A stretch of DNA of 64,000 nt, taken from Halorubrum coriense DSM 10284. GTDB lineage: Archaea > Halobacteriota > Halobacteria > Halobacteriales > Haloferacaceae. The stretch covers positions 1 through 64,000 of the forward strand of contig NZ_AOJL01000011.1 of the NCBI RefSeq assembly GCF_000337035.1, written 5' to 3'. The position numbers and the translations under genes are program-made. Shown here piece by piece: positions 3,297 through 29,471 of the stretch (positions within the stretch are counted from its first letter, which is position 1; every line of letters starts with the position of its first letter). Under the pieces are notes generated by a model. The model was not told the DNA's origin and made no database searches. It saw only the letters and a program-made list of their open reading frames with translations.

Positions 3297-3352
3297 ACGC
3301 AACCGTCCGAGGATGACACCGCAGAGAAAGAGAGTAGATTTCGTGTGCTTTC
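3274..3352 (-). repeat. Type-A origin repeats, left pair (inverted)
   Basis: There are two 23-base copies, at 3274-3296 and 3330-3352, both reading GAGAGTA..TTTCGTGTGCTTTC on the + strand. They are the reverse complement of the three copies at 4673-4807. The second overlaps the stop codon of the orc gene by two bases. The copies differ only in a two-base CG/GA step. Near-identical repeats in opposite orientations beside an Orc1/Cdc6 gene are the expected form of haloarchaeal origin recognition boxes. Confidence 0.8.
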
Positions 3353-4547
3353 ACTCGGTGTGCTTGGCGATCTCCGTCCGTGTCTCTAAGACGAGCGCCG
3401 GATCGAGATCGAGTTCGTACTCGTAGTACTGCCCCCCACTCAATCCCTTGTTCTGCTCGTGGCGTCGAAGGAACCCGAGCATGTGAAGATCCGAAAGATG
3501 ATCTTGAATACTCTTCAGTGTCGACAGCGGCGACGCAGCATGCGAATCCGCCACCTGCTCGTACGTTCGCTGGATCTCTTTTGACCGCGCCGGGACTTCA
3601 CCGCTGGTCTGGAGATTCGCGATCGCTTCGAGGATATACTGTGCGTGTTCAGTTTGGTCGCGGATCTTGTTTGTTACTCGACCACGCTGTACTCGTTCCC
3701 GTGCGGTCTCTATGTGTGCGTCTGTCACCGGTGTCTCACCATTCTGCTCAGCCAACTCCGCGCCGACACGGAGCAGATCGAGCGCTTGCCGCGCGTTCCC
3801 CATGTCCTGGGCAGCGAGCGCTGCCGCTTTCGCGATCGCCGACGTATCACACACCCCATCAACAAAGGCATGGTCCGCCCGGTGATCCAAGATCGTTCGC
3901 AGTTCCGCGGCGTCGTACGGACTGAACGAGATCTCAGTCTCCATCAGCGTGTCCTTCACCTTCGGCGAGAGCGTCTGTCGAAACGTGTAGTCATTGCTGA
4001 TCCCGATGACGCCGACCTTCGCGTCCGTGATGTGGCCGTTCGCTCGTGCGCGTGGCAGTTCGTACAGTAGCGTGTTTGCGTCCTCCAGATGATCAATCTC
4101 GTCAAACACGACAAGATGCGTCCCGCCGATGCGATCGAACTGTCGGTACAGCTCGTCGAACGCATCTCCAGTCCCAAGCCCCCGTTCTGGAAATGGACTG
4201 GCGTGATCCGGAAGGAGTCGGTTGACGAGATTACGAACCACCATGAACAGCGTCCGCCCGTTACAGTTCGCGGTGTGGGTGTGGAGATTGTCGGCTGACT
4301 CTCGCGTTGGTACCTCCTCGCGCAGTTCCTCTAACATGTACTTTGTAACAGCAGTCTTCCCGAGTCCGGCTTTGCCGTACACAAAGATGTTCTCTGGCGT
4401 TCGACCGAACAGTACGTCCTGAAGCGCGTGACTGTATGCTTCAATTTCCTCGTCACGCTCGAGGATTGTCTCCGGCTGGTAACTTTCCGTGAGTACCGTT
4501 TTGTCCGCAAATACAGTCTCTGTGAGATCGTCGAACGGACCACCCAT
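3351..4547 (-). CDS. orc: Orc1/Cdc6 replication initiator, type A
   Basis: This is an archaeal Orc1/Cdc6 AAA+ ATPase that recognises origin repeats and loads the replicative helicase. It has 398 residues, the usual length. The P-loop GKAGLGKT lies at residues 58-65 and Walker B (HLVVFDEIDHL) has D149/E150. Lid helices and a C-terminal winged-helix DNA-binding domain follow (PARSKEIQRTYEQ, HLSDLHMLGFL). The ATG at 4547 is chosen because MGGPFDDLTETVF is a normal start and a TTTTATATTT promoter element lies about 25-35 bases upstream. The longer frame to 4631 runs through that promoter. Type-A repeats sit on both sides of the gene, in inverted orientation. A decayed C-terminal fragment of a close relative is at 11.7-12.1 kb. 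Confidence 0.95.
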   Translation of the reverse strand: MGGPFDDLTETVFADKTVLTESYQPETILERDEEIEAYSHALQDVLFGRTPENIFVYGKAGLGKTAVTKYMLEELREEVPTRESADNLHTHTANCNGRTLFMVVRNLVNRLLPDHASPFPERGLGTGDAFDELYRQFDRIGGTHLVVFDEIDHLEDANTLLYELPRARANGHITDAKVGVIGISNDYTFRQTLSPKVKDTLMETEISFSPYDAAELRTILDHRADHAFVDGVCDTSAIAKAAALAAQDMGNARQALDLLRVGAELAEQNGETPVTDAHIETARERVQRGRVTNKIRDQTEHAQYILEAIANLQTSGEVPARSKEIQRTYEQVADSHAASPLSTLKSIQDHLSDLHMLGFLRRHEQNKGLSGGQYYEYELDLDPALVLETRTEIAKHTE

Positions 4548-4672
4548 GGATATCGTATCTAATAGGACGTACAAATATAAAACCACATGTTGTGTGCTTC
4601 GTATGCTTTTGTGGGTATATATCACAAGCAACGATAGTCACTACGTCGTCGTATTTTTGCGGGAATGAGATG

Positions 4673-7112: not shown

Positions 7113-7392
7113 TTAACCAACAGTTCGGTACACCTCGATAATCTGTTGGTTAAAACACTCACCATCACGGTGCCAGATCCCCTCAACAAGATCTCCAGAG
7201 ATGATATTCTAGAATATGATTATTCAGAATATGTTTATTCAGTCGGACAGTCGACAGCGTGTAGTTGCCAACAGTTTGGCGTGTGACGCCGGCGTGTTCC
7301 GCGAGTTCGGGTCTGTTGAACGCACGATTCGGCGGGAGATCGAGCAACGCGTCGACGAGAATCAGGATCGCATCGTGCTGCGTGAGGTAGGT
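7113..7392 (-). pseudogene. Remnant of a winged-helix transcription regulator
   Basis: The minus strand reads LTQHDAILILVDALLDLPPN then AFNRPELAEHAGVTRQTVGN, a clear helix-turn-helix. The frame is then interrupted by about 50 bases of A+T-rich sequence containing a 14-base palindrome (ATATTCTAGAATAT, 7204-7217), and resumes in another frame as DLVEGIWHRDGECFNQQIIE up to a stop at 7113. An in-frame TGA lies just before the first part. It looks like a small haloarchaeal wHTH regulator broken by an insertion. The family call rests on the helix-turn-helix segment only. Confidence 0.5.
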
Positions 7393-7512
7393 TCATCCTC
7401 ACAGCACGCTAACTCTTCCCTAATATTAGAATTTGAGCTATTATTGCTCAGACTATTATTGTCCAAATTCCAACTTCGGCATACATATGTACCTCCTGCC
7501 CCGAGGAGGGGC
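7393..7512. promoter_or_regulatory. A+T-rich leader of the ATPase gene with Shine-Dalgarno
   Basis: Repeated TTATTG/TATTAT words at 7420-7470 precede the ATG at 7513. GAGGAGG at 7503-7509 lies just before the start and is the basis for choosing 7513 over the upstream in-frame start at 7216. Confidence 0.55.
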
Positions 7513-8931
7513 ATGGATCAGTTCGTCAATCGGGTCGAAGAACTCGATAGGCTACGGACGCTCTACGAGAGCGATGCCGCGGAACTCGCAGTTATCTACG
7601 GACGTCGCCAGATCGGCAAAAGTGAACTCGTCCGTCGATCGATCTCCGACCGCGACGATGCCGTATACTATCAGGCCGTTCAAGGAACAGCGACCACACA
7701 GCGCAGGCGGTTCGTCGAGGCCGCAGCGACGACCTATCCAGAAATCACAGAGATCAAAGAGGAGTGGGAACTACTACTAAAACACCTCACTGAGCGAGAC
7801 GCCGTCATCGTCATCGACGAATTTCCATACCTTATTGAATCGAACGACGGGCTCCCATCGATCATACAACATTTGTGGGATACCGCGGTCGATGAAAGCC
7901 AGGCAACGCTCGTACTCACAGGCTCTGCGATCGGGATGATCCATACCCACATCCTCGATGGCGGTGCGCCACTCTACGGCCGCGTGTCCCAGACGCCGAA
8001 CGGCCGTCTTGAACTCGCACAACTCCCGTTTCACACGATCCACGAGTTCGTCCCGGCGTACGATCCCGAAGAGCGGGTGTTCGTCTATGGCGTCTTCGGC
8101 GGCACGCCCCGGTATCTCAGTCCCCTCGATCCGTCACAGAGCCTTGGAGAGAATATCACGCGACTGCTGTACGATCCGGATGGCCCACTCCATGACGAGC
8201 CCGAAACTGTCCTTCAGATGGAACTCAACGAAGTACACACGTATTTTTCCGTGCTCGAGTCGATGGCCAGCGGAAATCGTCGTCGGAACGAGATTGCCCA
8301 GGGAGCCGGCATCGCAAGCACCAACACGTCGTACTACTTCGACCGGTTGGAAACGCTCCGGATCATCGAAAAACATCACCCGGCACTCACCGATCCGGCA
8401 CGCAGCAAGCGGACGCGATACCGGATTCGAGATCCCGTCTTCCGGTTTTATTTCCGATACCTCTACGGCCGCGAGGGCCAGTACGAACTCTACGGCGAGA
8501 ACGGCTACGAGGATCTCATCGAGCCGGAACTACCCGACTTCGTCAGCGAAACGTTCGAATCACTCTGTCACCAAGCGGTGCCGGCACTCTATTCGGACTA
8601 CCAACTTACGCGAGTGCCGACCCAGTGGTGGTACAAGCGCCGAGAGATAGACATTGTCGCGCCGACTGACGAGTCGACACTGATCGCTGGCGAAGTGAAG
8701 TTCACGAGTACTCCGCTCGGGTATGACGTATTTTCGGACCTCGAAGATGACGTGGAACATGTCGACTGGACGCCCGCGGGCGGTGGTGATCCGACGTACG
8801 AGTTCGCTCTGTTCAGCCGCTCCGGGTTCAACCCCTCCGTCGAGGAAGCCGCAGACGAGCGTGATGACCTCCGCCTTTTCGATCTGTCCGATGTTGTTGC
8901 CGTTCTTGAGAATGGAACCTCCCCGCGCTGA
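7513..8931 (+). CDS. Archaeal-type ATPase with DUF234 nuclease-like C-terminus
   Basis: This 472-residue protein belongs to the archaeal STAND-like ATPase family. The P-loop is GRRQIGKS (30-37) and Walker B VIVIDEFPYL (D102/E103), with a sensor-like LTGSAIGM. A winged-helix part follows (RRNEIAQGAGIASTNTSYYF), then the DUF234 domain with its conserved YRIRDPVFRFYFRYLYG motif. Near the C-terminus REIDIVA ... IAGEVKF has the D...E-x-K spacing of a PD-(D/E)XK nuclease-type fold. Such proteins are abundant in archaea and often lie near mobile or defence genes; their physiological role is not settled. The gene stands alone between the decayed regulator and origin module 2. Confidence 0.85.
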   Translation: MDQFVNRVEELDRLRTLYESDAAELAVIYGRRQIGKSELVRRSISDRDDAVYYQAVQGTATTQRRRFVEAAATTYPEITEIKEEWELLLKHLTERDAVIVIDEFPYLIESNDGLPSIIQHLWDTAVDESQATLVLTGSAIGMIHTHILDGGAPLYGRVSQTPNGRLELAQLPFHTIHEFVPAYDPEERVFVYGVFGGTPRYLSPLDPSQSLGENITRLLYDPDGPLHDEPETVLQMELNEVHTYFSVLESMASGNRRRNEIAQGAGIASTNTSYYFDRLETLRIIEKHHPALTDPARSKRTRYRIRDPVFRFYFRYLYGREGQYELYGENGYEDLIEPELPDFVSETFESLCHQAVPALYSDYQLTRVPTQWWYKRREIDIVAPTDESTLIAGEVKFTSTPLGYDVFSDLEDDVEHVDWTPAGGGDPTYEFALFSRSGFNPSVEEAADERDDLRLFDLSDVVAVLENGTSPR

Positions 8932-9624: not shown

Positions 9625-9627
9625 TCA
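9214..9627. repeat. Diverged duplicate of origin-flanking DNA, copy 2
   Basis: Partner of 2084-2636. It carries CATACCGAGTGA (9219), CGAACCGAGTGA (9271) and CATACCAAGTGA (9371), three variants of one short word, plus the conserved islands listed for copy 1. It ends at the stop codon of the intact type-B orc, just as copy 1 ends at the pseudogene's stop. Confidence 0.75.
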
Positions 9628-10836
9628 CTCGATCCGCGCTGTCACGCCCTTCGGGAGCGCAATAGAATCAAAATCCCGAACAACATCGCCGACAATATCG
9701 AGGTCGACATCGAACTCGTACTGGTAGTAGTGCCCACCAGCCCGCCCCTCGTTTTTCATTTGCCGGTCGAGGATGCCGAGCATCGCCAGATCCGCGAGGT
9801 GGTCGTGCATACGACGACGAACGAGCGGGTCGACGTTGGAGCCCTCCGCGATACGTCGATACAGCGGGTACACGTCGCGGATCCGCGCCGGAGTCTCCTG
9901 CTCGAACGCGAGCTGTAGCATAGCCACGAGCGCGAGATGCCCGTGTTTCGTCAGCTCGCGCATCCCGTGTTCGACCTGACTCTGCTCGAGTTTCTCGCGA
10001 GCCTGATGGACATGCTCCTCTGTTAGTCGCTTCTCGCTGTTCGTCCGCGCAATCTCACCGGATTTATACAAGATATCCAACGCCTGCCGGGCACTTCCCG
10101 TGTCCTGCGCCGCGATAGCGGCACACAGCGCGATCACGGCGTCGTCTACCGCGTCGTCGTACATCGCACCGGCCACTCGCTCTTCGAGGATGGCGCGCAG
10201 TTCCGGGGCGTTGTACGGCGAGAAGTGAATCTCCTCCTCACAGAGGGTGTCTTTCACCTTCGGAGAGAGGTCATCGCGGAAGCCGAAATCGTTGCTGATG
10301 CCGATCACGCCCGGTTTCGCCTTGGAAAGGTAGCCATTTGAGCGGGCTCGCGGGATCTCGTACAGGATCTCGTCGTCGCTGCCGATATGGTCGATTTCGT
10401 CGAGGACGAGGAGGACTGTCCCGCCAATCTGATCGAGTTCCTCATACAGGATATCAAACACACGCTGTTGGGGATACCCGGTCGTACTGATCTGATCGTC
10501 TGCGGGTCGCAGCTGATTCACGAGGTTAACCGCAACTTGGTAGGACGACGAGAGGTTCGTACAGTTGAGCCAACAGACTGAGAGCTCAACATCGTCGTAC
10601 TGCTCCGTGTCTCGTTGTAGCTGCTTCAATAGATAGCGGGACACCGCCGTCTTCCCGACGCCCGTTTTACCGTACAAGAAGATATTCCGGGGTTGTGCGC
10701 CGTTAACGATCGGCTGAAGCGCGGCCGTGTACGTCGAAATTTCGTCCTCGCGAGCGGTAATCGAATCCGGCTGGTAATCCTCGCGGAGCATGTCCTCGTT
10801 GCGGAATATCTCCGTGTCCCGTGTGAACGTCGCCAT
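9625..10836 (-). CDS. orc: Orc1/Cdc6 replication initiator, type B
   Basis: This 403-residue archaeal Orc1/Cdc6 has P-loop GKTGVGKT (56-63), Walker [12 protein letters not shown] (D146/E147), an [11 protein letters not shown] sensor-1 segment, a SARQALDIL sensor-2 region and a C-terminal winged helix ([12 protein letters not shown]). It differs clearly from the type-A protein (N-terminus [17 protein letters not shown] against MGGPFDDLTETVF). The ATG at 10836 is the natural family start, with a TTTTATGGG promoter-like element about 25-35 bases upstream. Type-B repeats lie on both sides. A broken near-copy occupies 2634-3296. Confidence 0.95.
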
Positions 10837-13636: not shown

Positions 13637-13926
13637 CCTGCCCTGTTCACTGAACGAGCCGCCCGCTGTAAGCTGTACTCCAGAGTACCACCGATACATC
13701 CTCCAGAATCTCTACCCTTATCACCCGAACCCCCTCCCCGTTTCTCACCCCCGATATTTTGAGAGCAACAATTAATTCACATTCTTTATTCGACACAAAC
13801 ACACCAATCGGACCGACTTCGCTGACTACCCAACACAGACTCACCGTGAGCTACACACAACAACACCCACACTCCACATCTCGAACCGCCGCCCTGAGCA
13901 ACGACGCCCTCCTGTGCCCCCGCTAA

Positions 13927-16311
13927 ATGGCCGCAACCCCAGAATCCCCCCAAACTGACGACGACCGCGCTGAAAACGACCAAGAAGACTCCTCTACCCC
14001 AGACACCCTGCCAGACGAGAAGTTCGGGCCCAGCACACGCGCTCGGTTCGAACCACCTAAAGACAAGCCCCAACGACGCTCGGCTTTTCGGATTCGACTC
14101 CCCATTATCGAAGACGAATTCGAAACCCTTCCGGACTACATCCGCGGGTGTATCACCCAAGTCATCGAAGAAGTCCGGAAGGAAACCGCCGGTGGAATCA
14201 ATCAGTTCGAAGTACTCCAGTACCCTGGTCCGGTTGGCTTAGAACTCATCTTGAGCATCGAGCCAAAACGGAATGACGCCCGAAGTACCAACCAGAGCAC
14301 GGTCGGCGATTTTGTCGACAGGACCCATGAGGCGGGCGCCAACAAACTCACCAAAGCGATTCAAAAATACGTTCCTGAGGAATGTACCGTTGAACGTGGG
14401 TCTCTCGATCTGTCTCCACTCGGTACCACCCCAGTCAACGTGTCTCGGCTTCATCTCCGTAAAGATCACGTGGTCAATCCCGTTGGCACGAGCGGTGTCG
14501 ACGTGCTCGCGACGACGTTTAACACACTACGTGAGCACTCAGTAGCATTCGTCTATCAAACACTTCTTAAACCGAAACAAGATGGCCAGTACACTGCCGC
14601 CGTTCGGCTTGCGACGTATCCACCTCAGTTCGTCTTTACCGGTCGAGAGGACTTCGTTAAGATCGCTGAACGTGGCCACCCATTTGATCTGGCGACGACG
14701 TTCGGCGCGTACAACCTCACCTCCAACTTCCGGGGACTCACTGACCGGTACTGGGAAACCGAGTACACCGAGAAAATCAACGGTGAATCGTTCGCCAGCG
14801 CAAGTTATACTGATGAAATGGTAACATCGCGCAAATCAAGATCGCAGGCACGGCGTGAAGCGGACCAAGTGAAAGAGATCGTACTTGGCAAATCCGATTA
14901 CTGGCACATGCTGTCTGCGAACGCAACGTGGGACACACTGCTCAAAAAAGAACTCAACCGCTATGCTCGATTCGATATTACGGGACCGTTCGTAGCACAA
15001 CTCACTGGCCTGGTTCGATTACGCTGGAAGACCAACCCGTGGGGGGTCGTTCCAGGGCGTGAACCGCCTAAGTTCCACACAGAAGAGATACTCAACACAT
15101 ACGGCTCAACAGCGCCAAACTATGGCGACAATGATGAGCTCATCCACGTCCCCGACGAGACGCTCGCAAACACCGGCAGCATTGCACACCACGGACACGT
15201 CCAGTCGATTGTTGACATCTTCACCGAAGGCGGCGATGAGATTTACGAAATCACCCAAAACAGCAAGTCGCTGCCGGATATCGAACTCCACACAGAGACC
15301 GGTGAGATTAGTACGATCCCGCTGACTGTTGACGCCTCATACGTCTCTGTTGAAGCTGAACTCCATAACAAAACAAAGGCGTCGACCACACTCGTCAACG
15401 CTGACCGCGCCTACGCCATGGGTCGGCACGTCATCTTCGTCTATGATTCACGAAAAAGCGCAAAACGGGGCTTTAGCCACCTCAGTCAGCCGTACAACGA
15501 CAACCTCTCAGACCGAGATGATGGCGGTGTTCGGCTGTACAACCGCACAAGGCCAGTGCGCTGTCCCGACGACCGCATTCCGGTGATGAAAGGCAGTACC
15601 ACAACCACCTGGGAGCTGTTTGGTCGCGACCGGATTGTCGCCCGCGTCAACGGCGAGCGTATCGCAGGCGGCGCACCTGGCGGTGACGTCGGTGAGTTCT
15701 CGTGGGACACCCACTTCTATCAGGAGGTCGACGGCGTCCACCGCGTTGAGGATGCAGACGGAGCGGTCATTGAGACGTACAACGAACCAGAGACGCTCAA
15801 CTCAGAGTGGACACGGATTCCGCTCCCACACATTCCCATCTGTGGCAACTACCTTCATTTCGCGACAGTTGCGTACCGTACCGGAGCGGGTGGCATTGAC
15901 GTCTACTCCGACTTCCCGGACTGGGATACGCCTGACAGCGCCGGCAAGATGAAGCGACATCGTGGCTGTCTCGAAACGTTCACCGAGCAACTCATGTGTG
16001 AACGCGAGGACACGCGCATCTCGTCGGGAGCACTCCAAACGTGGGCCCAACACTACTACACCGCCGCCTCAGCCCACGATACTCCACCGGGATCGATCAT
16101 CGTCCAAGCGCTCCCCGACGAGATCAAAGACGCGAAGAAAGGCGGCACCAACAACCGCAATCCGCACTACCCTGGATACGACTGGGTCATCCCCCCAGAG
16201 ATCGACACGCCTCACCGCCCGGGTGTTGAAGAAGGACTCACCGACCTCTCCGAAACGCTCACAGAGACGTCGGTAGCCGACGTCGAGATTGACACCGACG
16301 AGGCGGAATGA
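13927..16311 (+). CDS. Large unrecognised soluble protein (794 aa)
   Basis: I do not recognise this protein. It has no signal peptide or membrane segment and no visible P-loop. An acidic disordered N-terminus (1-50) is followed by an alpha/beta region. Several motifs recur in the next gene in the same order: SPLGTTPVNVSRLHL (163-177; next gene APLGNTPVPVHRLL) and PFDLATTFGAYNLTSNF (252-268; next gene PFDAFNLTTNREF). Near residue 450 SYVSVEAELHNKTKASTTLV and, further on, GVRLYNRTRPVRCP recall, from memory, a domain found beside HerA/VirB4-type ATPases of haloarchaeal plasmids. That is a weak inference. It overlaps the next gene by four bases (ATGA). Confidence 0.8.
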   Translation: MAATPESPQTDDDRAENDQEDSSTPDTLPDEKFGPSTRARFEPPKDKPQRRSAFRIRLPIIEDEFETLPDYIRGCITQVIEEVRKETAGGINQFEVLQYPGPVGLELILSIEPKRNDARSTNQSTVGDFVDRTHEAGANKLTKAIQKYVPEECTVERGSLDLSPLGTTPVNVSRLHLRKDHVVNPVGTSGVDVLATTFNTLREHSVAFVYQTLLKPKQDGQYTAAVRLATYPPQFVFTGREDFVKIAERGHPFDLATTFGAYNLTSNFRGLTDRYWETEYTEKINGESFASASYTDEMVTSRKSRSQARREADQVKEIVLGKSDYWHMLSANATWDTLLKKELNRYARFDITGPFVAQLTGLVRLRWKTNPWGVVPGREPPKFHTEEILNTYGSTAPNYGDNDELIHVPDETLANTGSIAHHGHVQSIVDIFTEGGDEIYEITQNSKSLPDIELHTETGEISTIPLTVDASYVSVEAELHNKTKASTTLVNADRAYAMGRHVIFVYDSRKSAKRGFSHLSQPYNDNLSDRDDGGVRLYNRTRPVRCPDDRIPVMKGSTTTTWELFGRDRIVARVNGERIAGGAPGGDVGEFSWDTHFYQEVDGVHRVEDADGAVIETYNEPETLNSEWTRIPLPHIPICGNYLHFATVAYRTGAGGIDVYSDFPDWDTPDSAGKMKRHRGCLETFTEQLMCEREDTRISSGALQTWAQHYYTAASAHDTPPGSIIVQALPDEIKDAKKGGTNNRNPHYPGYDWVIPPEIDTPHRPGVEEGLTDLSETLTETSVADVEIDTDEAE

Positions 16312-18305
16312 AACACATCGCAACGGGTAGTCATCCCGCTGCGCCGTGGTCTGCTGTCGAGCTCGTCACCACCAGCAAGTCACCAGCTGGATATCATGGG
16401 ACGCCCATCTCACGACTCCTCGCGCGGGTGATCCATCGGGCGCTTTTCGACGAGCATCTCGATGCTGTCACGTTGCTTGCGGTCTCTGGACACCATCGTG
16501 AGCGGTATCTGCTCCGCTCGCGATCGACCACACACTCGGACGCGAGCACTGAGACACTTGCCAGCATTGCCAACGATGAACTCCCACTCGAAGTCGGCAT
16601 CACGATTGTCGAGGTCGACCCAGCACCACTCGGCAACACACCCGTGCCTGTCCACCGACTGCTCACAACACGCGATCGTCCAGTTGATCGCGCTCGGACG
16701 TCGACGCCAACACCGTTCGAACAACTGCTCGAGATCGCCGCCAACATTCGGCCACATGCGATCCAACTCATCGTCGGTCGATTCGAGAGTGACTGTGTTG
16801 AGGTGAGCATCCGCATCGCAGACTTTTCACCGACTGTGGCCACCAACACGGCCGCGGCTGACGCCCACTATCATCAGGATGCGCCTAGTATTACAGCGCC
16901 CTTCGACGCATTCAATCTCACGACAAACCGTGAGTTCATCTTCGATCACGGCTGGGAACAGCATACAGAAACCCGCCTGTCTGGGCCACCCGCTCCGATG
17001 GTGACACACGAGCACGGAGCGGCTGCAGAAATCTCCACGATTGCGTCCGCTCGCACGCTCTCACGGACCCCAACAGAGTATGAGGCGTTGTTCTCTGACC
17101 ACCCACCTGCGGCCCCACTCACACCGACGTACGCCCAACATGGGGTACTTCCATGGATTCGGCTCAATACAGAACTCTTGCCAGAGTTCTGTGGGCTGCG
17201 AGAACAAACGTACTACCTCTCACCGTGGGACAAATTCGGTCGCGCACCACCACGGATTACCCCTCAGTACACCCTCCGGAAGCCAACGCCGCCGGCAGCG
17301 TCGCCGCCGCCATCGGCTCCCCTTCCGACTGCTGAGGAACTCGAGATTGAATCCTCACTTGGTCGGACTGCTCTCGAATGGGTCCGTGAACACGGTGGGA
17401 ACATCACCGACGACCACGCCAGTCCGTTCGAGGACTTCACCGCGGTGTACCCAGACCAGACGCATCGCTGTGTCATCTTAACGGACCCACAGTTTGTTCG
17501 TGGCGACCTGATTGCGGTCGCCGCTGACGTCCATCAGTCGTCAACAACCGACCGACTCACGGTAGTCACAGACGCAACCGAAGTTGCCGCTCGCGCACGG
17601 GATTGTCTCCAACAGCCGTTCATCCGCACCGACGGGAAGACACGACTGTACACCCAATCGATTCGACTACCGAAGACGCTTGACACGCCTGTCCATCGAC
17701 TGCCAGCAACGAGCGAGTGGGTACTCACGCCTGCGGGAGAGCTCGAATATCATCATGGCGGTACTGTGCGAGCACGCACTGCCCCTGATGAGGAGTTCAC
17801 CACGATCACGGCTGCGTTCCCGCAGGTCTCTCATCGTGATGGGCTCTTCACTGTCACAAACCCTGTCGACGGCGACCAGCGCATCTACAAAACCAATGAA
17901 GCATGTTTCGAGGCGTTCGAATTTGTCTACCCGCCAGCTGTCCCGACGTGGCTTACAGGCGGTCTTGAGTTCGCCACAGTTCTGACTATGAACGGAGACG
18001 ACTTCCGTGAATACCGGCCACAAGCCCGGTGGGATCGCCCACAACTCACGACTCGCGATCGGGACGCTGCGATCGAGTTTTTTGTGACGTATACCGTCTC
18101 AGATCCCGACCGCTCGCTCACCTACGCTGCGGTTGAATCTGCGTTTATCGCGTGGCTTCGTCACCAAACCACGGAGCCGATTGCCGGTAATTTCGCCCCG
18201 AGTCTGAAGTCTGCGTTCCCTGGAACGCTCTCAAGCATCCATAGTGACGACCTCGAAAACCGAACGTGGCGATACCCGTTTGAACGCGCACAAGCGTCAG
18301 TGTGA
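16308..18305 (+). CDS. Large unrecognised soluble protein (665 aa), diverged paralogue of its neighbour
   Basis: Function unknown. The start at 16308 overlaps the upstream stop (ATGA), so the two products are translationally coupled. It shares with the 794-residue protein the LGNTPVPVHRLL motif (108-119), an ITAPFDAFNLTTNREF segment (195-210), and later KTRLYTQSIRLPKT (equivalent to VRLYNRTRPVRCP). It is shorter, with a Pro/Ser-rich linker (PPAASPPPSAPLPTAEE) in the middle. No membrane helices, signal or nucleotide-binding loop are visible. A pair of homologous, coupled, differently sized proteins suggests two subunits of one complex. Confidence 0.8.
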   Translation: MKHIATGSHPAAPWSAVELVTTSKSPAGYHGTPISRLLARVIHRALFDEHLDAVTLLAVSGHHRERYLLRSRSTTHSDASTETLASIANDELPLEVGITIVEVDPAPLGNTPVPVHRLLTTRDRPVDRARTSTPTPFEQLLEIAANIRPHAIQLIVGRFESDCVEVSIRIADFSPTVATNTAAADAHYHQDAPSITAPFDAFNLTTNREFIFDHGWEQHTETRLSGPPAPMVTHEHGAAAEISTIASARTLSRTPTEYEALFSDHPPAAPLTPTYAQHGVLPWIRLNTELLPEFCGLREQTYYLSPWDKFGRAPPRITPQYTLRKPTPPAASPPPSAPLPTAEELEIESSLGRTALEWVREHGGNITDDHASPFEDFTAVYPDQTHRCVILTDPQFVRGDLIAVAADVHQSSTTDRLTVVTDATEVAARARDCLQQPFIRTDGKTRLYTQSIRLPKTLDTPVHRLPATSEWVLTPAGELEYHHGGTVRARTAPDEEFTTITAAFPQVSHRDGLFTVTNPVDGDQRIYKTNEACFEAFEFVYPPAVPTWLTGGLEFATVLTMNGDDFREYRPQARWDRPQLTTRDRDAAIEFFVTYTVSDPDRSLTYAAVESAFIAWLRHQTTEPIAGNFAPSLKSAFPGTLSSIHSDDLENRTWRYPFERAQASV

Positions 18306-18903
18306 CTACCACACGCCGGGTGGTGTCGGTGTCAATATATCTGAATTATTATCTATTCTATTTTGTCTTTGATCGACTCTCAACGAGTCAGTTGTGCTGT
18401 GTGCTGTTTCGGATCTCGGCGATCCTGAGCGGATGCTGTGAATGAGCGGGATCGATGAGCGGGCCACGTTGGGAATGAGGGGTATCACGGGTATAATGAG
18501 GGGGCTAATTGAGAGACGTCGCGGCCATGATGGGGCCGCCAGTACGACTGATAATAGTAATAATAACCTTCCAACTGTCGGGAGAAGAGAGACCAGCGGA
18601 ACCAGTTTCAGGGCGGAGCCACGGGAGGTGATTGTCTTCTTCGCGAAGAACCGGTCACACCACCCTGTCGCAGAATATCTCAGAAAGTCTATGTCAATTC
18701 TGGCACAAACAGTCGTCCGTGAACCACTATCAAATCTTCTCGTTCGCTCTGTTCATTCGTTGTGAACTAGCCGTCCGCACAGTCGAATCTCTGTTGACCT
18801 AACTGCCTCCCAATCCACACAATGTCAGAACCGCCGTGAAATATGAAGAGCGACCAGTGACTGATACTGTGTATTTATCAGTTCAAAAGACAATCACGAA
18901 GAC
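18306..18903. other. Intergenic with half of a distant inverted repeat
   Basis: Positions 18543-18566 carry a 24-base sequence (inner part GACTGATAATAGTAATAA) present as an exact reverse complement at 22455-22478, beyond the PQQ gene. A GGGGGCTAATTG stretch at 18501 also has a loose inverted counterpart near 22560. A TATTTATC element at 18870-18877 lies about 30 bases before the PQQ gene start. No gene supported. Confidence 0.6.
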
Positions 18904-22262: not shown

Positions 22263-23148
22263 CTTGTCGGATCGTACACTTTGTCTACCCGGTGAATTGT
22301 GAACCGTGAGAACGGTATCAGCGAGACGTTGTGTGGAACCACCAGCAGGTCTCTTAGTGGCCAGTATACTGATCTGCCCAGCGGGTTTGTGGTGGGACAC
22401 GCCTCCATGCTGAGAGATGTCGATACTGTGCTCACAGCCGTCGTGAGTTGGTCTTTATTATTACTATTATCAGTCGTATCTGACCCAGCTAACTGCGCCA
22501 CGTCATGCGTTTTTCGCCAATATACCCATCATCGAAGTTAGCTGTAAGTTTTGGCCCGCTAATTGTCCCCCTAACTCGTTGAGTACATAAAAACTCACTT
22601 GCTCGCGCTGTTACCTCTCGTGTGAGGGCTTGCCTGATCCGTGAGCTACTCTCCTATCAGGCGTCCACTGTCATTCCAGTCTGTTCGCTGAAGACGTCGT
22701 TGGAATTATTCAACTGCTCATTTCGTCGATAGATATCTCTGTCTGAAGTACGATATAGCCGAGACCCGTCCACTGACACTACTCAGCATCGAGATGTCGG
22801 ATATGTTTGACTGACCACTCGTCTATTTCGGTCCCTGTATCGATGCTCACCTCTGTGTTTGCGGTGTCTGCGCTGTCGTCTGCCACTCCAGATTGCGTGA
22901 TGAACCAGTCATTTCCCTAGCAGTGTTCTGTTTCGCGTCTCAATGCTTAGCTGCTGCCCGCGCGATCACAAATAACCAGCCTACTGAGTCTCCGACAGTG
23001 TTAACGCGTACTTACCAGCTATTGAGGCGATAATCTCACAAACAGAGTATAAACTATATCATTGTAGTTTACTCTGCTGAGACTGTCAGCCAGTATGGAC
23101 AACACCGAATAGTTTATTGAACGATATTTCGTGTGTGGGTACGTTAGG
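22263..23148. other. Long intergenic region before the tubulin-like operon
   Basis: Apart from the inverted-repeat half at 22455-22478, I see no gene. The last 120 bases (GAGTATAAACTATATC at 23046, TAGTTTATTGAACGATA at 23110) are A+T-rich and probably contain the operon promoter. No Shine-Dalgarno precedes the ATG at 23149. Confidence 0.5.
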
Positions 23149-26100
23149 ATGAACTTACCAAGTCGGATATTCGCCGTGGGTGGTGCTGGGAAGGCAATCA
23201 CCTACGAACTCTTAGAAGCAGACTGGGTTCAGGAATCTGTGCTTCAGCCGCGCCGAAATCCGCGAACGCTGACCGTGACCGTGATCGACACGGCTGAAGA
23301 AGAAGAAAACAGAGATCTCGAACGAATCCAACAAATCCGGGATTCGATCCAAGAGACCAGAGAGCGCCTCCGAGCAGACGCGACACAGGAGGGCCGACTC
23401 GGCGAGATCAACATCGATTACCTGCCACTGACTCAGAACATCCAACTCCACGATCAAAACGATCTGATCGGGGCGGAGGCGGTGCCACGGATTGCGGCGG
23501 GAGTTGGCATCGACGAGGAAAATTGGTGGCTTAAACCTGAGTTCATTAACGAGAATCTCGACTTCGCTACCGGTGTTGTCAGGAAACGAGGACTCGGAAA
23601 GGGACTGTACTACAAATCCTACGCCGAAGATGATAGTGTCCGCACGTCGATTGATCTCCCGAACCGCGGAAAAGTCGCTGTCGTCGCCGGACTCGGCGGC
23701 GGTTCTGGCTCAGGGATCTTCATCGACTTAGTCAAACACCTCAAGCGGACGAAGCGGACCGCCGAGATCACCCTTTTCGGGGTGCTCCCCAACGACGAGG
23801 AAGGCGACGCAGAAAGTGCGAACGCACACGCCGTCCTTTCGGAGTTGGAGTACATGAGCCTCCAAGGAGAAGACCTGTTCAAAGACAGGATCCTCATTCC
23901 CATCGATCCGACTGGCTTCGGCGGCAAGAAAGGGAACCTTATCCAGAGTTCTGACGCACTTGTCGAGTTCGACAGGGCTGCGGTCTACCTCATCACCTCG
24001 TACTACAACATGATGGACATGGAGGACCCGTTCGCGGACACGCCCTCCTACGCACCCTTCATCATGGGTGTCCCGCAGGTCCTCCGGTACAACGTCGACG
24101 CTATCCAAGACGCGAAGACTGTCACCAAAGAGATTCTCAACGCGAAACAGGACGCATTAGAAGCCGAAGAGGACGTATACACCGGTGTCGACCGATTCCT
24201 CTCGCGAGAGTGGAGCCCAGACGAGATGGAGGGCGAACTCCACGACTCTGACCGGACGGATCTCGAGACCCGGCTTGATAACGTCTGGTCGCTCACCGAA
24301 CTCGACATCTTCACCGAACTTGAGTACGAGTCCATCTCTGCTTACCGCGAGATCATCTCGGAAGCCGAGGCCGAAACCGATGACATCCTCGACCGGATCA
24401 ACGTCATCGCTGGTTCGATTCGGGCGGGCACTGCGCGGATCGGTGATAACGAACAGTACGTCGATAGCATCGACAAGCAGCTGGCCGACATCATCGACAC
24501 GGAACTGAACCGTATTGCTCACCGCAAGGACCTGCTCGTCCGGCTCCGGTCGATCGACAACAACCGCGTTGAGGGGACGATCAGTTACTTGCTTGCTGTC
24601 GAAGACGAGGGAATCAACCCCGGCGTCCGCATCAATCGGTTGGAAGCGAAACGTGACGAGGTCGTCGACCGCCGAGATCGACTCCAGTCGGAACTCGAGG
24701 AGGCCGAAGCTGAACTGGAGACCCGCAAGCGGGAACAGCAAGACGAGGTTGACCGCCGGGTCGCAACGTGGAAGAACGCGGCCGAACCGCTATATCGAGA
24801 GTACAACGACTGCCAGTCGATGGCCGTCGAGGAACTGGTCGGTGACCTTCGGAACGGACTAGAGTCCTTCGCACGTGCTGTGGAGAACGCAGAGGATCCT
24901 GATCAGGTCGAGTCTGTTAACGACAGTGCTGTTCGGACGGCACTCGACGATATCAGCAACGAGTTCGACACTGTCGGCGTTGACACAACGGATATCGAAC
25001 GCCGGATTAACTCGTCGCTCGCGGACCTCGCAGACGCAAAGGAGTCGTTCCTCACGATGAATCAAGAGGAGGGAACGATTGAATCCATCCTCCCGTGGGA
25101 CTCCTCCAGCGAAGAGGAACGAAAGAAGGCTGAAAAGAACTACAGGCGCAAGCGCAGTCAGCTTGATGAAGCGGAGGTGTTCAAAATGTCGCGGGCGGGC
25201 AGCAATCTGTCGATTGAGGTCCAGTTCTCAGTCACCGAACTCAAACACCTTATTGAACGGGAGCTTGACCAGCGCCAACAGGAGATCATCTCGCGAACGC
25301 GCTCCGAACTCGATGAGCAGCACCGGGCGGCGATCGACGAACTAGAACGCGATCTTGAGTCGGGGGTCGGCTTCGACCAACTCACTCGCCAGTTCGAAGA
25401 ACTTGTTCGCGACGAGATTGTCGAAACGGCAGATATTGAGCGGCGTCGTGACGATCTCGAATCGGATCTGGAAACCGCAAAGGTCGAGTCAGATCTCTAC
25501 GATGCGACCGTCACGCTGTTTGAGGAACTAAACGGACCTCGGGACTCATTCTTGAACTCCCAAGAGTCCTATAAGCAGCTTCGTGAAGAGTACAACGCCG
25601 AGAAGAACTCCTCAGTCGCAACTGAGACCGAAGAGTACAGTTACGTCAAAACTGTTCAGCCAAACGACATCCTCCAACTTAGAGACGACACCGATATCGC
25701 CGAGAGCAAGATCTTCGACGACGAGACCGAACGGCAGCGACTGCGTGGTTCACTTGAGGAACTCGCCCGGAACGCACACAATCCCCGCTACACCGGAATC
25801 CGTCGGCGCCGGATCAGTGGCGACCGTGCGCGATACAACGAGATGAACATCGTCGTTGGCGTGATGAGCCGAGCGATCGAGCAGATCAACGATGTCGCCG
25901 ATCTAAAATCCGAGTTCCAGGGGGCGTACAATCTCGGCGCAGGCGGCGAAAACTACGCCTCCTTCCCGGTTGAGGCGGGCGGCAGTTGGGATGTCGGGTT
26001 GGGGATCTTCATTGATGGCATCTTCCTCGATAACCTCCGGGCGGAGATCGAAGCCGACGGCTACCGGAATGGGTACGAATCGAAAAAACAGTCAGACGAG

Positions 26101-26298
26101 ACCGATATTCTCGTCCACCACGCGTACGGTCTCGACAAGGGCTACTTCGTCAAACGTGACTCGGTGTTGAACCTCGAGCATCCCGACGATGTGGAGTTCT
26201 TCTTGAGGGATGAAGGCGATATCAAGGCCGACCTTCTTGATGAACACATCAGTCGAACTGACTTCACCGCTTCTGCTGATGGAGGCGAGGAGGAATAA
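23149..26298 (+). CDS. Giant tubulin/FtsZ-superfamily protein (FtsZl-1 / Tubulin_2 type)
   Basis: This is a 1049-residue predicted GTPase. The N-terminus (MNLPSRIFAVGGAGKAITYE) is the first nucleotide-binding loop, and GLGGGSGSGIFIDLVKHL at 181-198 is the tubulin signature G-box (GGGSGSG, residues 183-189). LFGVLPN follows, as in FtsZ/tubulin. After about residue 350 comes some 500 residues of highly charged coiled coil (for example RDRLQSELEEAEAELETRKR), then a globular C-terminal region. Length and layout fit the FtsZl-1 family described by Makarova and Koonin as part of a membrane-remodelling system. The ATG at 23149 is preferred over the GTG at 23131. The next gene begins six bases downstream. 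Confidence 0.85.
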   Translation: MNLPSRIFAVGGAGKAITYELLEADWVQESVLQPRRNPRTLTVTVIDTAEEEENRDLERIQQIRDSIQETRERLRADATQEGRLGEINIDYLPLTQNIQLHDQNDLIGAEAVPRIAAGVGIDEENWWLKPEFINENLDFATGVVRKRGLGKGLYYKSYAEDDSVRTSIDLPNRGKVAVVAGLGGGSGSGIFIDLVKHLKRTKRTAEITLFGVLPNDEEGDAESANAHAVLSELEYMSLQGEDLFKDRILIPIDPTGFGGKKGNLIQSSDALVEFDRAAVYLITSYYNMMDMEDPFADTPSYAPFIMGVPQVLRYNVDAIQDAKTVTKEILNAKQDALEAEEDVYTGVDRFLSREWSPDEMEGELHDSDRTDLETRLDNVWSLTELDIFTELEYESISAYREIISEAEAETDDILDRINVIAGSIRAGTARIGDNEQYVDSIDKQLADIIDTELNRIAHRKDLLVRLRSIDNNRVEGTISYLLAVEDEGINPGVRINRLEAKRDEVVDRRDRLQSELEEAEAELETRKREQQDEVDRRVATWKNAAEPLYREYNDCQSMAVEELVGDLRNGLESFARAVENAEDPDQVESVNDSAVRTALDDISNEFDTVGVDTTDIERRINSSLADLADAKESFLTMNQEEGTIESILPWDSSSEEERKKAEKNYRRKRSQLDEAEVFKMSRAGSNLSIEVQFSVTELKHLIERELDQRQQEIISRTRSELDEQHRAAIDELERDLESGVGFDQLTRQFEELVRDEIVETADIERRRDDLESDLETAKVESDLYDATVTLFEELNGPRDSFLNSQESYKQLREEYNAEKNSSVATETEEYSYVKTVQPNDILQLRDDTDIAESKIFDDETERQRLRGSLEELARNAHNPRYTGIRRRRISGDRARYNEMNIVVGVMSRAIEQINDVADLKSEFQGAYNLGAGGENYASFPVEAGGSWDVGLGIFIDGIFLDNLRAEIEADGYRNGYESKKQSDETDILVHHAYGLDKGYFVKRDSVLNLEHPDDVEFFLRDEGDIKADLLDEHISRTDFTASADGGEEE

Positions 26299-26303
26299 CT
26301 CCA

Positions 26304-27746
26304 ATGGACTCACCTGTCACGTTCCTTGAGGAGCACGGCGAGAAGTTCTTCCTCGGGGTGTACTTTCTCATCATGGTCGTTGTCGCCGGCCCGCTGTTCT
26401 TGACGCTTGGCGAGGCGTGGATCGCCTCTGATGTGTTCCGGCCGCTGATCCTTTCGTTAGATCCACTCTTATCGATTTCACTTGAACAGTTCTCAGCTGC
26501 GGTGTTCGGGATCTACCTCGGCTTGCTTGCGCTCATGACAATCGACCCCAAAAAGCGGGTCCAAGGTGCGCTGCTCTGGCTTGGAACAGGCTCTGCGCTT
26601 ATTGGACTGCTCTCTATTGGGCTCTTCATCCCAAACATCGATTTCACCGCCAACGTGGCATGGCTCGGTGCCGGGCTCGTCGGCGGAACCGTCGTCGGCG
26701 GCGGCAAACAGCTTATGGAGGTTCGAACAACCTCCGCACTTGAATTCCGCCGATCCGCGAGTATTCTGTTCTATTTGATCACTGCTATCGTCCTCGTCGG
26801 ACTGGTTGAGTTCCATGTCAATTTCCCGCAGTTCATTGACCCGTCGGGTGGCACAGTAGAAATCATCACACCGGAACCGACCATCTCAGTCGCGTGGAAC
26901 GGACTCACAACGAACGCTCTAATGGCTGGGGTGTTCGTTGTGACCCTTCGTCGGTTCGTTACCTACGACTCCTCTGAGAACTTCTTCGTGCTTGGACCGC
27001 CGGGGTCTGGCAAGTCGCTATTTTTGGTCGGGAAGTATCTCGCCGCGCTTGATGACGCAGTCGACAGGAAAAGCGACACGCCGCTAAACCCGAGCGGTGA
27101 CCTGATGGAGCTCGTCGGCCGACTCGATGCCGCAACCAAAAGCGCTGGCTGGGAGCTCGACTCAACGGGTGCGACGGAGGTAGAGGACCTACAGTTCCGC
27201 TTCGTCAACGGACGTGTCTTCCCGAAGAACATCGAGCTGTCGAGTCTCGATTACGCTGGTGAGTATCTCGAAGAACTTCCGGGCGCACTGATGAGCCCCG
27301 ACACCGAGATCGACAACTCTACGGTCCAGTTGCTTGCCGACCGGGTTCGAGCGGCGAACACACTCATTCTCGTGATCGACGTTGAGCGGTACCACAACAA
27401 CGAACCGCTCGGGATTGAGCCGTACTTCGACATCCTCGATTCAGCTGAAAACAAGGATGTCCTGTTGGTGGCGACGAAATCAGACATTCTCGCACAGCAG
27501 TTTGAGGATGAGCAAGCGCTTGACCCACACCAGTACTTCGAGGACTTCCGCCAGTACGTGAATGACACGCTCGTCGAAAATAACCAAGCAGTACGAACGC
27601 TCGTGCAAGACACTTCTGGTTCGGAAATCCATCCGGTGTACTACGAAACGACAGTGAACGATGACGGCGAACGCGTGCCGATGCGCGACCGGAACGGGAA
27701 CGTGATGACGGTCGGCTTTGAGGAAATGCTGGAGAAACTGGGGTGA
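26304..27746 (+). CDS. Membrane-anchored GTPase of the FtsZl-1-type operon
   Basis: This 480-residue protein has about six hydrophobic segments in residues 17-215, then a cytosolic P-loop domain. G1 is GPPGSGKS (231-238), G3 is DYAGE (D316, G319) and G4 is TKSD (391-394), preceded by LLVA. These make it a GTPase. The spacing from the tubulin gene (five bases) and to the next gene (six bases) shows one operon. In the published FtsZl-1 neighbourhoods a distinct GTPase and a membrane protein accompany the tubulin-like protein; this gene combines a membrane part and a GTPase part. It probably couples GTP hydrolysis at the membrane to the filament formed by the neighbour; that is inference. Confidence 0.82.
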   Translation: MDSPVTFLEEHGEKFFLGVYFLIMVVVAGPLFLTLGEAWIASDVFRPLILSLDPLLSISLEQFSAAVFGIYLGLLALMTIDPKKRVQGALLWLGTGSALIGLLSIGLFIPNIDFTANVAWLGAGLVGGTVVGGGKQLMEVRTTSALEFRRSASILFYLITAIVLVGLVEFHVNFPQFIDPSGGTVEIITPEPTISVAWNGLTTNALMAGVFVVTLRRFVTYDSSENFFVLGPPGSGKSLFLVGKYLAALDDAVDRKSDTPLNPSGDLMELVGRLDAATKSAGWELDSTGATEVEDLQFRFVNGRVFPKNIELSSLDYAGEYLEELPGALMSPDTEIDNSTVQLLADRVRAANTLILVIDVERYHNNEPLGIEPYFDILDSAENKDVLLVATKSDILAQQFEDEQALDPHQYFEDFRQYVNDTLVENNQAVRTLVQDTSGSEIHPVYYETTVNDDGERVPMRDRNGNVMTVGFEEMLEKLG

Positions 27747-27752
27747 CCACGC

Positions 27753-29471
27753 ATGTCAACACTACGCATTTACGATACGAAGGGGAATGCGTATTCCCCT
27801 GATGGGACCGCAACGGGATCAAACGAACAGGTCAAAGAGCTGTTTTACGGCGGTGTTCGACTGGCCATTCGGTCAGATCACCGACGCGAAATAAGCCTGT
27901 TTTTCCGCGCCCGCGAAACGCGGAACGCTCGCACGGAGCAGTTCTACGCTGTCTACTCCGTCGATGATTCCTCAACACCGCTCCAAGACCTCATCACTGA
28001 TCTCACAACACGTGTCGAGTCTGAGTGGGGGTATTCGATCGATGACTCCTCAGAAGAGATGCAGGTGTACCGGGACCTGAAACGCGGGAATACTGCTCTT
28101 CCTGGAGGCAGTACAGAACAGGGTATTCTCTCTAAACTCATCAGCTCTCGGCAGCCTGTGGTGGTCGGTGTCCAAGATGAACGCAACGCCATTGGCCTGC
28201 TCAGCGAGTACCTCGATGAGTACGATCAGGCGGCAATCGCCGACTCGGAAGACGCTGATGTGCTCTCAACATTTGATTTCGTCGTCACACCAAATGGAAC
28301 CCGCGGCATTACACCACTTGGCGAAACAGAGGCCAGATGGGAGTCGACGTCTCGGTCGCTCCGCGATAAGCATATTAAACAGGAGATTGCGTCAATTCGC
28401 GAGTCGGTTGAGACACTCTCACGCGAACACGGCCTCTCGAATGGGGAGATACGAGATCGAATCCAAAGTAGCGTTCCGGCGCTCAAAGCGTCGACGACGA
28501 GTTCCGACCTTAGAACAAGCGCAAGCGGGTCAGATGATGATTATCTGGTACCGCCGAAAGTTGGATTGTACGTAGCTGTTGGTGCTGCCGTCCTACTCGT
28601 GTTGTTTGCTGCGATTTACTTCGGCGTTTTCGGATTCATTGGCGCAACTAATGGCAGTGGGCAGACGTCTTCACAAGCTAATATCACCGGTGTAGTTATT
28701 GACAGCACGACCGGTAACCCGCTTAATTCTTCTACTCGCAATGTTTACGTTACCCTCAATAACGAGACTGGGGCCGTCGTGAAAAACGCGAGCCAACCGC
28801 AATATGCTTTCACCGTCTCCAAAGCGCGACTATCGAATTTGACACTTAAGGCCAGCGCAGATGGCTATCAGAACCAGACAAGGGATCTTTCAGGTGACTC
28901 TCGCGAAATCAATATCTCGCTTGTGCCCGCTTCTACAGATGCTGATAGTGCGACGCTTTCTCGTGTCCAAGGTCAGGTGGTTGACTCGACTAACGATGCT
29001 GCTATCTCGGATGCGAACATCTCTTTAATTGGGACTGAAAACAGAGTAGTTAAAACGAATCTCATTGGAAACTACACGTTCGAAGAAATTCCTCCCGGCG
29101 AATACACACTCTCTGTTACCGCCGATGGATACGTTGCCTCGGAAAGCCGTACTATCAGTGTGAATGGCACAACCACACAAGTTGACGATATCAACTTAGA
29201 CCCAACTGCCGCTCTGTCGATCTTGGTTACTGATTCAAACGCAGATGCTGGCGTTGCTGGCGCTTCTGTGTACCTCTATGACAACAGTACCAGGAAATCG
29301 GTCAACAGCAGTACAACAGATCAAGCCGGTTGGTACAATGTCTCTGATCTTGCGCCTGGAACATACGATATTGAAGCTAGGCCAGATGGCTACGATAACA
29401 AAGAAAAAACGTATGAGGTTAAGCCGGGCGCCGCTCGCGTGATTGAAATCACCGTAATAAGCGACTCGTAG
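27753..29471 (+). CDS. Single-pass membrane protein with carboxypeptidase-regulatory-like repeats
   Basis: This 572-residue protein has a cytosolic N-terminal domain of about 270 residues, without recognised family (STLRIYDTKGNAYSPDG...). One membrane helix follows (VGLYVAVGAAVLLVLFAAIY), then about 280 residues outside the cell. The outer part holds three beta-sandwich repeats of the CarboxypepD_reg/PEGA kind: GVVIDSTTGNPLN, GQVVDSTNDAAISDANIS with GNYTFEEIPPGEYTLSVTAD, and AGVAGASVYLYD with LAPGTYDIEARPDGY. Many N-x-S/T sites suit S-layer-associated glycosylation. It is the last gene of the tubulin/GTPase operon, and would link the cytosolic machine to the cell surface. Confidence 0.8.
   Translation: MSTLRIYDTKGNAYSPDGTATGSNEQVKELFYGGVRLAIRSDHRREISLFFRARETRNARTEQFYAVYSVDDSSTPLQDLITDLTTRVESEWGYSIDDSSEEMQVYRDLKRGNTALPGGSTEQGILSKLISSRQPVVVGVQDERNAIGLLSEYLDEYDQAAIADSEDADVLSTFDFVVTPNGTRGITPLGETEARWESTSRSLRDKHIKQEIASIRESVETLSREHGLSNGEIRDRIQSSVPALKASTTSSDLRTSASGSDDDYLVPPKVGLYVAVGAAVLLVLFAAIYFGVFGFIGATNGSGQTSSQANITGVVIDSTTGNPLNSSTRNVYVTLNNETGAVVKNASQPQYAFTVSKARLSNLTLKASADGYQNQTRDLSGDSREINISLVPASTDADSATLSRVQGQVVDSTNDAAISDANISLIGTENRVVKTNLIGNYTFEEIPPGEYTLSVTADGYVASESRTISVNGTTTQVDDINLDPTAALSILVTDSNADAGVAGASVYLYDNSTRKSVNSSTTDQAGWYNVSDLAPGTYDIEARPDGYDNKEKTYEVKPGAARVIEITVISDS

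Follow-up and report, generated by a model that had tools for sequence, protein, structure and literature searches.

The window analysed here, a stretch of 64,000 nucleotides (positions 1 to 64,000 of the forward strand of contig NZ_AOJL01000011.1 of Halorubrum coriense DSM 10284), carries two overlapping genes, designated A and B, which probably encode a nuclease and a catalytically dead partner, both related to the tails of haloarchaeal coupling proteins. The coordinates, lengths, strand and four-base overlap of the two genes had been given exactly in the original prediction, which was made from the sequence of the window alone (Table 1). A total of 26 loci bearing A were compared, namely the window, L006-L009, L011 and L012 (one split locus) and L038-L057, with gene calls made by a simple composition rule. 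The family alignment of A comprised 23 rows, the interrupted A genes of L044 and L057 and the split A of L011/L012 being left out, and that of B comprised 18 rows, partial or later-found B genes being left out.

The mutual paralogy of both proteins, claimed in the original prediction, was confirmed. A and B were 23% identical across 635 columns in BLASTP (E 8e-9), and comparison of their family alignments with hhalign paired the N-terminal halves at 99.9% (E 8e-36) and the C-terminal halves at 100% (E 4e-38), the E-values coming from small profile comparisons. Since both halves match, the paralogy extends over the full length of the proteins and beyond chance. The three shared motifs that had been described are present and in the order given; the first reads as written (LGxTPVxVxRL; LGTTPVNVSRL in A and LGNTPVPVHRL in B), but the other two are spaced otherwise than stated and also differ between the proteins, with PFD-x8-NLTSN and RLY-x8-P in A versus PFD-x2-NLTTN and RLY-x6-P in B.

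The two proteins had also been described as soluble and lacking a P-loop, and this held for the whole family. The Walker A pattern [AG]x4GK[ST] was found in none of the 23 A rows and none of the 18 B rows, and no Pfam ATPase matched either protein. No row of A or B contains a 19-residue segment with hydropathy above 1.8, so neither protein shows an N-terminal membrane anchor; by this test both proteins are predicted to be soluble. No family of note was matched by A or B in Pfam, NCBIfam, PHROGs or PADLOC. For the four most similar copies, the ratio of non-synonymous to synonymous substitution rates was 0.22-0.28 for A and 0.26-0.33 for B, values that indicate purifying selection on both genes.

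The C-terminal half of A contains a conserved nuclease-like core. Residues H421, G436, P450, D451, E476, E478, N491 and R494 are identical in all 23 A rows, and K484 is a lysine in 21 of them. The 18 B rows have no D in the column aligned to residue 451 of A and no E in those aligned to 476 and 478, and two pattern matches elsewhere in B fall outside the core. When 33 of the 63 available sequences, including 17 coupling proteins, were aligned jointly, H, G, D, E, E and N did not vary. Inspected by eye, this alignment suggests for A a helix that carries H, then a strand, a second strand bearing PD, a third with ExE, and finally a helix and a strand, which in our reading is the order of PD-(D/E)XK enzymes. 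A is likely to be a nuclease of this type; it has the acidic motif of the superfamily and, as read by eye, a similar order of core elements, and differs in having no match above a curated cut-off, the nearest model being Pfam REase_AHJR-like (one A core, E 0.0045, residues 11-85, below the curated cut-off). The ExE variant of A recalls that of BamHI.

The original prediction had noted a weak resemblance to domains that accompany HerA/VirB4 ATPases. This resemblance is real and reflects strong homology. The C-terminal half of A matched the C-terminus of coupling-protein-like ATPases of haloarchaeal type IV secretion systems (T4SS) with 99.9% and E 1.6e-31 over 334 columns (hhalign), and B matched it with 97.8% and E 8.3e-13, compared with E 0.08-0.5 for off-target comparisons. 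In the reverse direction, a profile of coupling proteins of 640-760 residues recovered A proteins with a best E of 2e-15. The A profile matches a stretch of 230-250 residues in long haloarchaeal proteins, with some match in 170 of the 391 genomes of the class, and the long matches inspected were T4SS coupling-protein-like ATPases according to Pfam T4SS-DNA_transf, TraG-D_C and TrwB_AAD_bind; the NCBIfam VirD4/TraD models matched them below cut-off. The coupling ATPases retrieved fall into three sizes (about 1,370-1,625, 1,050-1,150 and 640-760 residues), all with the module towards the C-terminus, and PD...ExE is present in 25/26 long, 6/6 medium and 8/8 short proteins, all 40 having been picked for matching the A profile. 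An alignment of these proteins used 20 of the 40 sequences. Their last domain scores weakly with Pox_D5/primase C-terminal models. On plasmid pCBA1232-02 the coupling ATPase gene follows VirB4, and on pNG600 it follows a gene in the place of VirB4 that is annotated as hypothetical.

The N-terminal halves of A and B matched the N-terminal domain of the coupling proteins with a best E of 0.0005 over 90 collinear columns, at a hhalign probability of 33%, and column-reversed controls gave E 0.5-0.6; homology in this part is at most suggestive. An example of these VirD4/TraG/TrwB-type ATPases is WP_004594534.1, which is encoded on pNG600 of Haloarcula marismortui and annotated as a 'type IV secretory system conjugative DNA transfer family protein'. 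The C-terminal third of such ATPases consists of the nuclease-like core (H..G..PD..ExE..N), a beta-rich stretch and a winged helix of primase type, and is collinear with both A and B. In contrast to the ATPases, A and B have no P-loop ATPase domain, lie away from VirB4/T4SS genes and form what appears to be a catalytic/dead pair.

Table 1. Coordinates of the gene pair and of its features in the window.
Feature	Position	Strand	Basis
Gene A, 794 residues, putative catalytic (PD...ExE) member	13927..16311	+	Family alignment, conserved core
Gene B, 665 residues, paralogue without the active-site residues	16308..18305	+	A-B comparison, family alignment
ATGA, shared by the stop codon of A and the start codon of B	16308..16311	+	Sequence
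A residues 1-400, N-terminal domain common to B (LGTTPVNVSRL region); similarity to coupling-protein N-terminus weak, collinear	13927..15126	+	hhalign
A residues 401-794, module of nuclease-like core, beta-rich stretch and winged helix, also making up the C-terminal third of T4SS coupling proteins from haloarchaea	15127..16308	+	hhalign E 1.6e-31
A putative active-site stretch, H421 - G436 - P450 D451 - E476-x-E478 - K484 - N491	15187..15399	+	Alignment of A rows, joint alignment
A residues ~665-760, C-terminal winged-helix-like domain	15919..16206	+	Match to coupling-protein winged helix, E 6e-14; limits approximate
B pseudo-nuclease core, residues ~345-440, without equivalents of D451, E476 and E478	17340..17627	+	18 B rows; limits approximate
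Conserved non-coding leader, also present in L006 and L007, whose flanks differ; left edge of block	13689..13926	+	Locus comparison
Conserved downstream stretch, common to L007 and L008; right edge of block	18306..18621	+	Locus comparison

Additional proteins related to the coupling ATPases or to the core were observed. On pNG600 and pCBA1232-02, exonuclease VII genes (xseA/xseB) precede those of VirB4 and the coupling protein by a few kb (L128 5013-6251, L129 5837-7074). Haloarchaeal open frames of about 3,100-3,400 residues contain a coupling-protein-like ATPase domain (for example G130:C6, G137:C15 and G167:C2). The nuclease-like core alone gave weak matches (E 1e-5 to 1e-9) in genomes G450, G578, G618 and G638, which belong to other families of the same phylum, outside the order of the window; most of these are frames of 590-960 residues.

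A profile search detected relatives in 20 of the 170 genomes of the same family, 14 of them of Halorubrum, the genus of the window, and the nearest named relatives of A are from three Halorubrum species. B adjoins A, whole or in part, in 24 of the 26 loci; it is whole or nearly so in 20, split in L056, represented by its C-terminal half in L051, L053 and L057, and missing in L045 and L049 only. The possibility that A stands alone in several lineages was ruled out, B being present in L040 and L048 and partial or split in L051, L053, L056 and L057. By clustering and in a tree, the A and B proteins formed two clades whose split is older than the divergence of the lineages. Among 18 pairs in which gene order was measured, A is first in ten and B in eight, and the four-base overlap occurs exactly in six. 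Distances among A and among B proteins were correlated (r 0.975 for 16 pairs, 0/10000 permutations as high; 0.79 for seven representatives, 19/5040 permutations as high), a correlation that linkage alone would also give.

Three features of the pair itself were also recorded. The genome of the window carries a second, distant pair on contig C55 (L009, 7317-11996), in the order B then A, its A being 23% identical to that of the window. In comparisons of B with those of L006, L007 and L008, the C-terminal third of the protein from the window is 38-63% identical to those of L007 and L008 and the remainder 85-93%, an apparent allelic swap from near residue 430. A frame of 26 codons from GTG to TAA (13846-13926) abuts the ATG of A in-frame and looks kept in L006 and L007; it is a possible leader peptide or a possible means of translational coupling.

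A block comprising both genes and their conserved edges (13689-18621) is common, whole or nearly so, to the window, L006, L007 and L008, and its flanks differ, which suggests that the pair is mobile as a cassette. Inspection of the conserved flanks by eye revealed no clear long inverted repeat that could serve as an origin-of-transfer (oriT-like) signal.

On these data A and B are, as judged from their sequences, ancient full-length paralogues kept side by side, one with an invariant site and the other with that site lost, and with tails as in coupling proteins. That they are a nuclease and a dead partner related to such tails is considered probable. A would cut or nick DNA with metal ions, B would be a structural or target-recognising partner, and the dimer would either cleave a single strand or depend on a second dimer, with the winged helices and the N-terminal domains of both proteins binding DNA. 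Because there is no motor and there are no transfer genes nearby, the simplest use would be to cut or nick foreign DNA entering the cell. A defence assembly, one of the functions offered in the original prediction, is the preferred reading of the pair. A role in conflict, as a chromosomal-island cassette that interferes with incoming mobile DNA (plasmids, viruses) and does not act within a resident transfer machine, is proposed tentatively, at a little under an even chance; the explanation as a whole, that is, a stand-alone nuclease pair that corresponds to a coupling-protein tail without its motor and used against mobile DNA, is judged to be evenly balanced between right and wrong.

Several observations weigh against this explanation. 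All Pfam REase matches are below the curated cut-off, and other weak matches of the core point elsewhere, for example to a B12-binding domain in 3 of 33 cores. Structure models of A and B, based on alignments of four sequences 76-89% identical to the protein of the window, had a mean predicted local distance difference test score (pLDDT) of 28.8 in one case and 32.2 in the other, and searches of the PDB with A and with the family and joint alignments gave nothing credible (for example designed proteins and a THEMIS fragment). The occurrence of ExE instead of (D/E)XK could reflect a non-catalytic metal site. No PADLOC 2.0.0 model matches A or B at E<=1, and the neighbours of the closest copies are ordinary (small two-gene cassettes, a nucleotidyltransferase, Orc1/Cdc6), so that the label 'defence island' is an impression only.

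The other function offered in the original prediction, that of non-ATPase subunits of a transfer complex, is not supported. Among 484 open reading frames around the loci, a profile search found a single coupling-protein/VirB4 ATPase, in L045, where 2.2 kb separate the A gene from this coupling-protein-like ATPase, which itself has no nuclease module. A coupling-ATPase profile, which also detects other HerA-like ATPases, matched 118 of the 170 genomes of the family at E<=1e-10, namely 14 of 20 genomes with A and 104 of 150 without it; six A-positive genomes, including that of the window, had no match at this threshold. With a stricter best E<=1e-80 the proportions were 8/20 and 68/150, and there was still no association. 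No plasmid record contained A or B when searched with five query proteins covering the main branches, although 178 records of the same collection matched one coupling protein and 423 matched Orc1/Cdc6; as A is found mostly in Halorubrum and the collection has few plasmids of this genus (14 among the 423 Orc1/Cdc6-positive records), this absence is mild evidence only. No relative of A was found in phage records by profile search (E<=0.01), and single-protein scans of viral contigs gave no distant relatives of the pair.

The same data bear on a mobilisation, or relaxosome-like, function, in which the pair would nick its own island or plasmid at a specific site, pass the strand to the coupling protein of another element and so stand in for the relaxase missing from archaeal elements. 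The design with one dead subunit fits a nickase, the same module is fused to a coupling-protein motor in all 40 ATPases (picked for carrying it), and the collection types as non-mobilizable every one of the 178 haloarchaeal plasmid records that contain a relative of such an ATPase; the ATPase near A in L045, devoid of a nuclease domain of its own, would also suit this function. According to PMC6563490 and PMC9905601, no relaxase is recognisable on archaeal conjugative elements. The absence of A and B from plasmid records, the six A-positive genomes without such an ATPase and the single locus of 26 near one argue in the other direction, and mobilisation, less supported than the cutting of foreign DNA, is regarded as unlikely.

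If mobilisation did hold, A and B would fill the place that relaxases have in bacterial DNA transfer. General Pfam and NCBIfam scans of A and B gave no relaxase match, no search aimed at relaxases having been made. A nickase of the PD-(D/E)XK type would not form a covalent link to DNA, unlike a relaxase. The archaeal HerA-NurA pair, a pump ATPase and a nuclease that jointly process DNA, may be likened to A and B; coupling proteins combine the pump and the nuclease-like domain in one chain, and in A and B that domain has no pump attached. HerA-NurA has been proposed to make single-stranded DNA for archaeal conjugation (PMC9905601). A more speculative extension, which we consider rather improbable, is that haloarchaeal conjugation relies on the PD...ExE module as its missing DNA-processing enzyme, in place of a relaxase. 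Self-transmissible plasmids would have the module joined to the coupling-protein motor, and islands that undergo mobilisation in trans or attack incoming transferred DNA would have it unattached, as a nickase heterodimer of active A and dead B.

The pair could also act as a conjugation inhibitor or decoy that imitates the tail of coupling proteins and poisons an invader's coupling protein, either its hexamer or its substrate site (exclusion), with or without use of the nuclease site. Its architecture, that of a coupling protein minus the motor, its patchy spread over 20 of 170 genomes and the location of at least 5 of the 26 loci on contigs longer than 1 Mb are in accordance with such a role; the fully conserved active site of A would be needless for a pure decoy and no negative association with coupling-protein ATPases was seen (14/20 versus 104/150); such a role is considered improbable. 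Housekeeping of a plasmid or island (partition, replication or recombination) by a two-subunit DNA-binding complex, the core being a metal-stabilised DNA-binding fold and not an enzyme, agrees with the winged-helix ends, the two Orc1/Cdc6 genes of the window (3351-4625 and 9625-10836) and its lower-GC island beside a stretch of 70% GC, and is likewise improbable given that the acidic residues are invariant in A and wholly lost in B, the pattern of an enzyme with a dead partner.

Should the preferred reading, defence against conjugation or viruses, be correct, the pair would represent a new nuclease for defence, akin to a component of plasmids. It is an open question how archaeal plasmids cleave their own DNA for transfer (PMC6563490, PMC9905601), and a candidate domain with named residues is now indicated on haloarchaeal plasmid coupling proteins. 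The natural, motor-free version with one active and one dead subunit may be easier to purify and test than pumps of 1,400-1,600 residues. No description of the pair or of the domain was found in open-licence papers, among them PMC4158269, PMC10818511, PMC11078007 and PMC11868833.

With regard to neighbouring genes, a divergent gene of 208-296 residues adjoins the pair upstream, on the opposite strand, in three branches (L041-L044, L009/L054/L055 and L011/L040); its product has one or two hydrophobic segments near the C-terminus (below the threshold in L041) and, in one branch, a DeoR-like helix-turn-helix. An ATPase_2/DUF234 protein encoded at 7216-8931 of the window matches the PADLOC candidate PDC-S27 (E 1.5e-43), and its relatives adjoin A in L047 and L052. 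Further downstream, three consecutive genes (23131-29471) encode a Tubulin_2-like protein of 1055 residues, a protein of 480 residues with a weak AAA_16 match and a carboxypeptidase-regulatory-like repeat protein of 572 residues, and two adjacent genes encode CetZ-type tubulin homologues (35434-36606 and 36691-38130).

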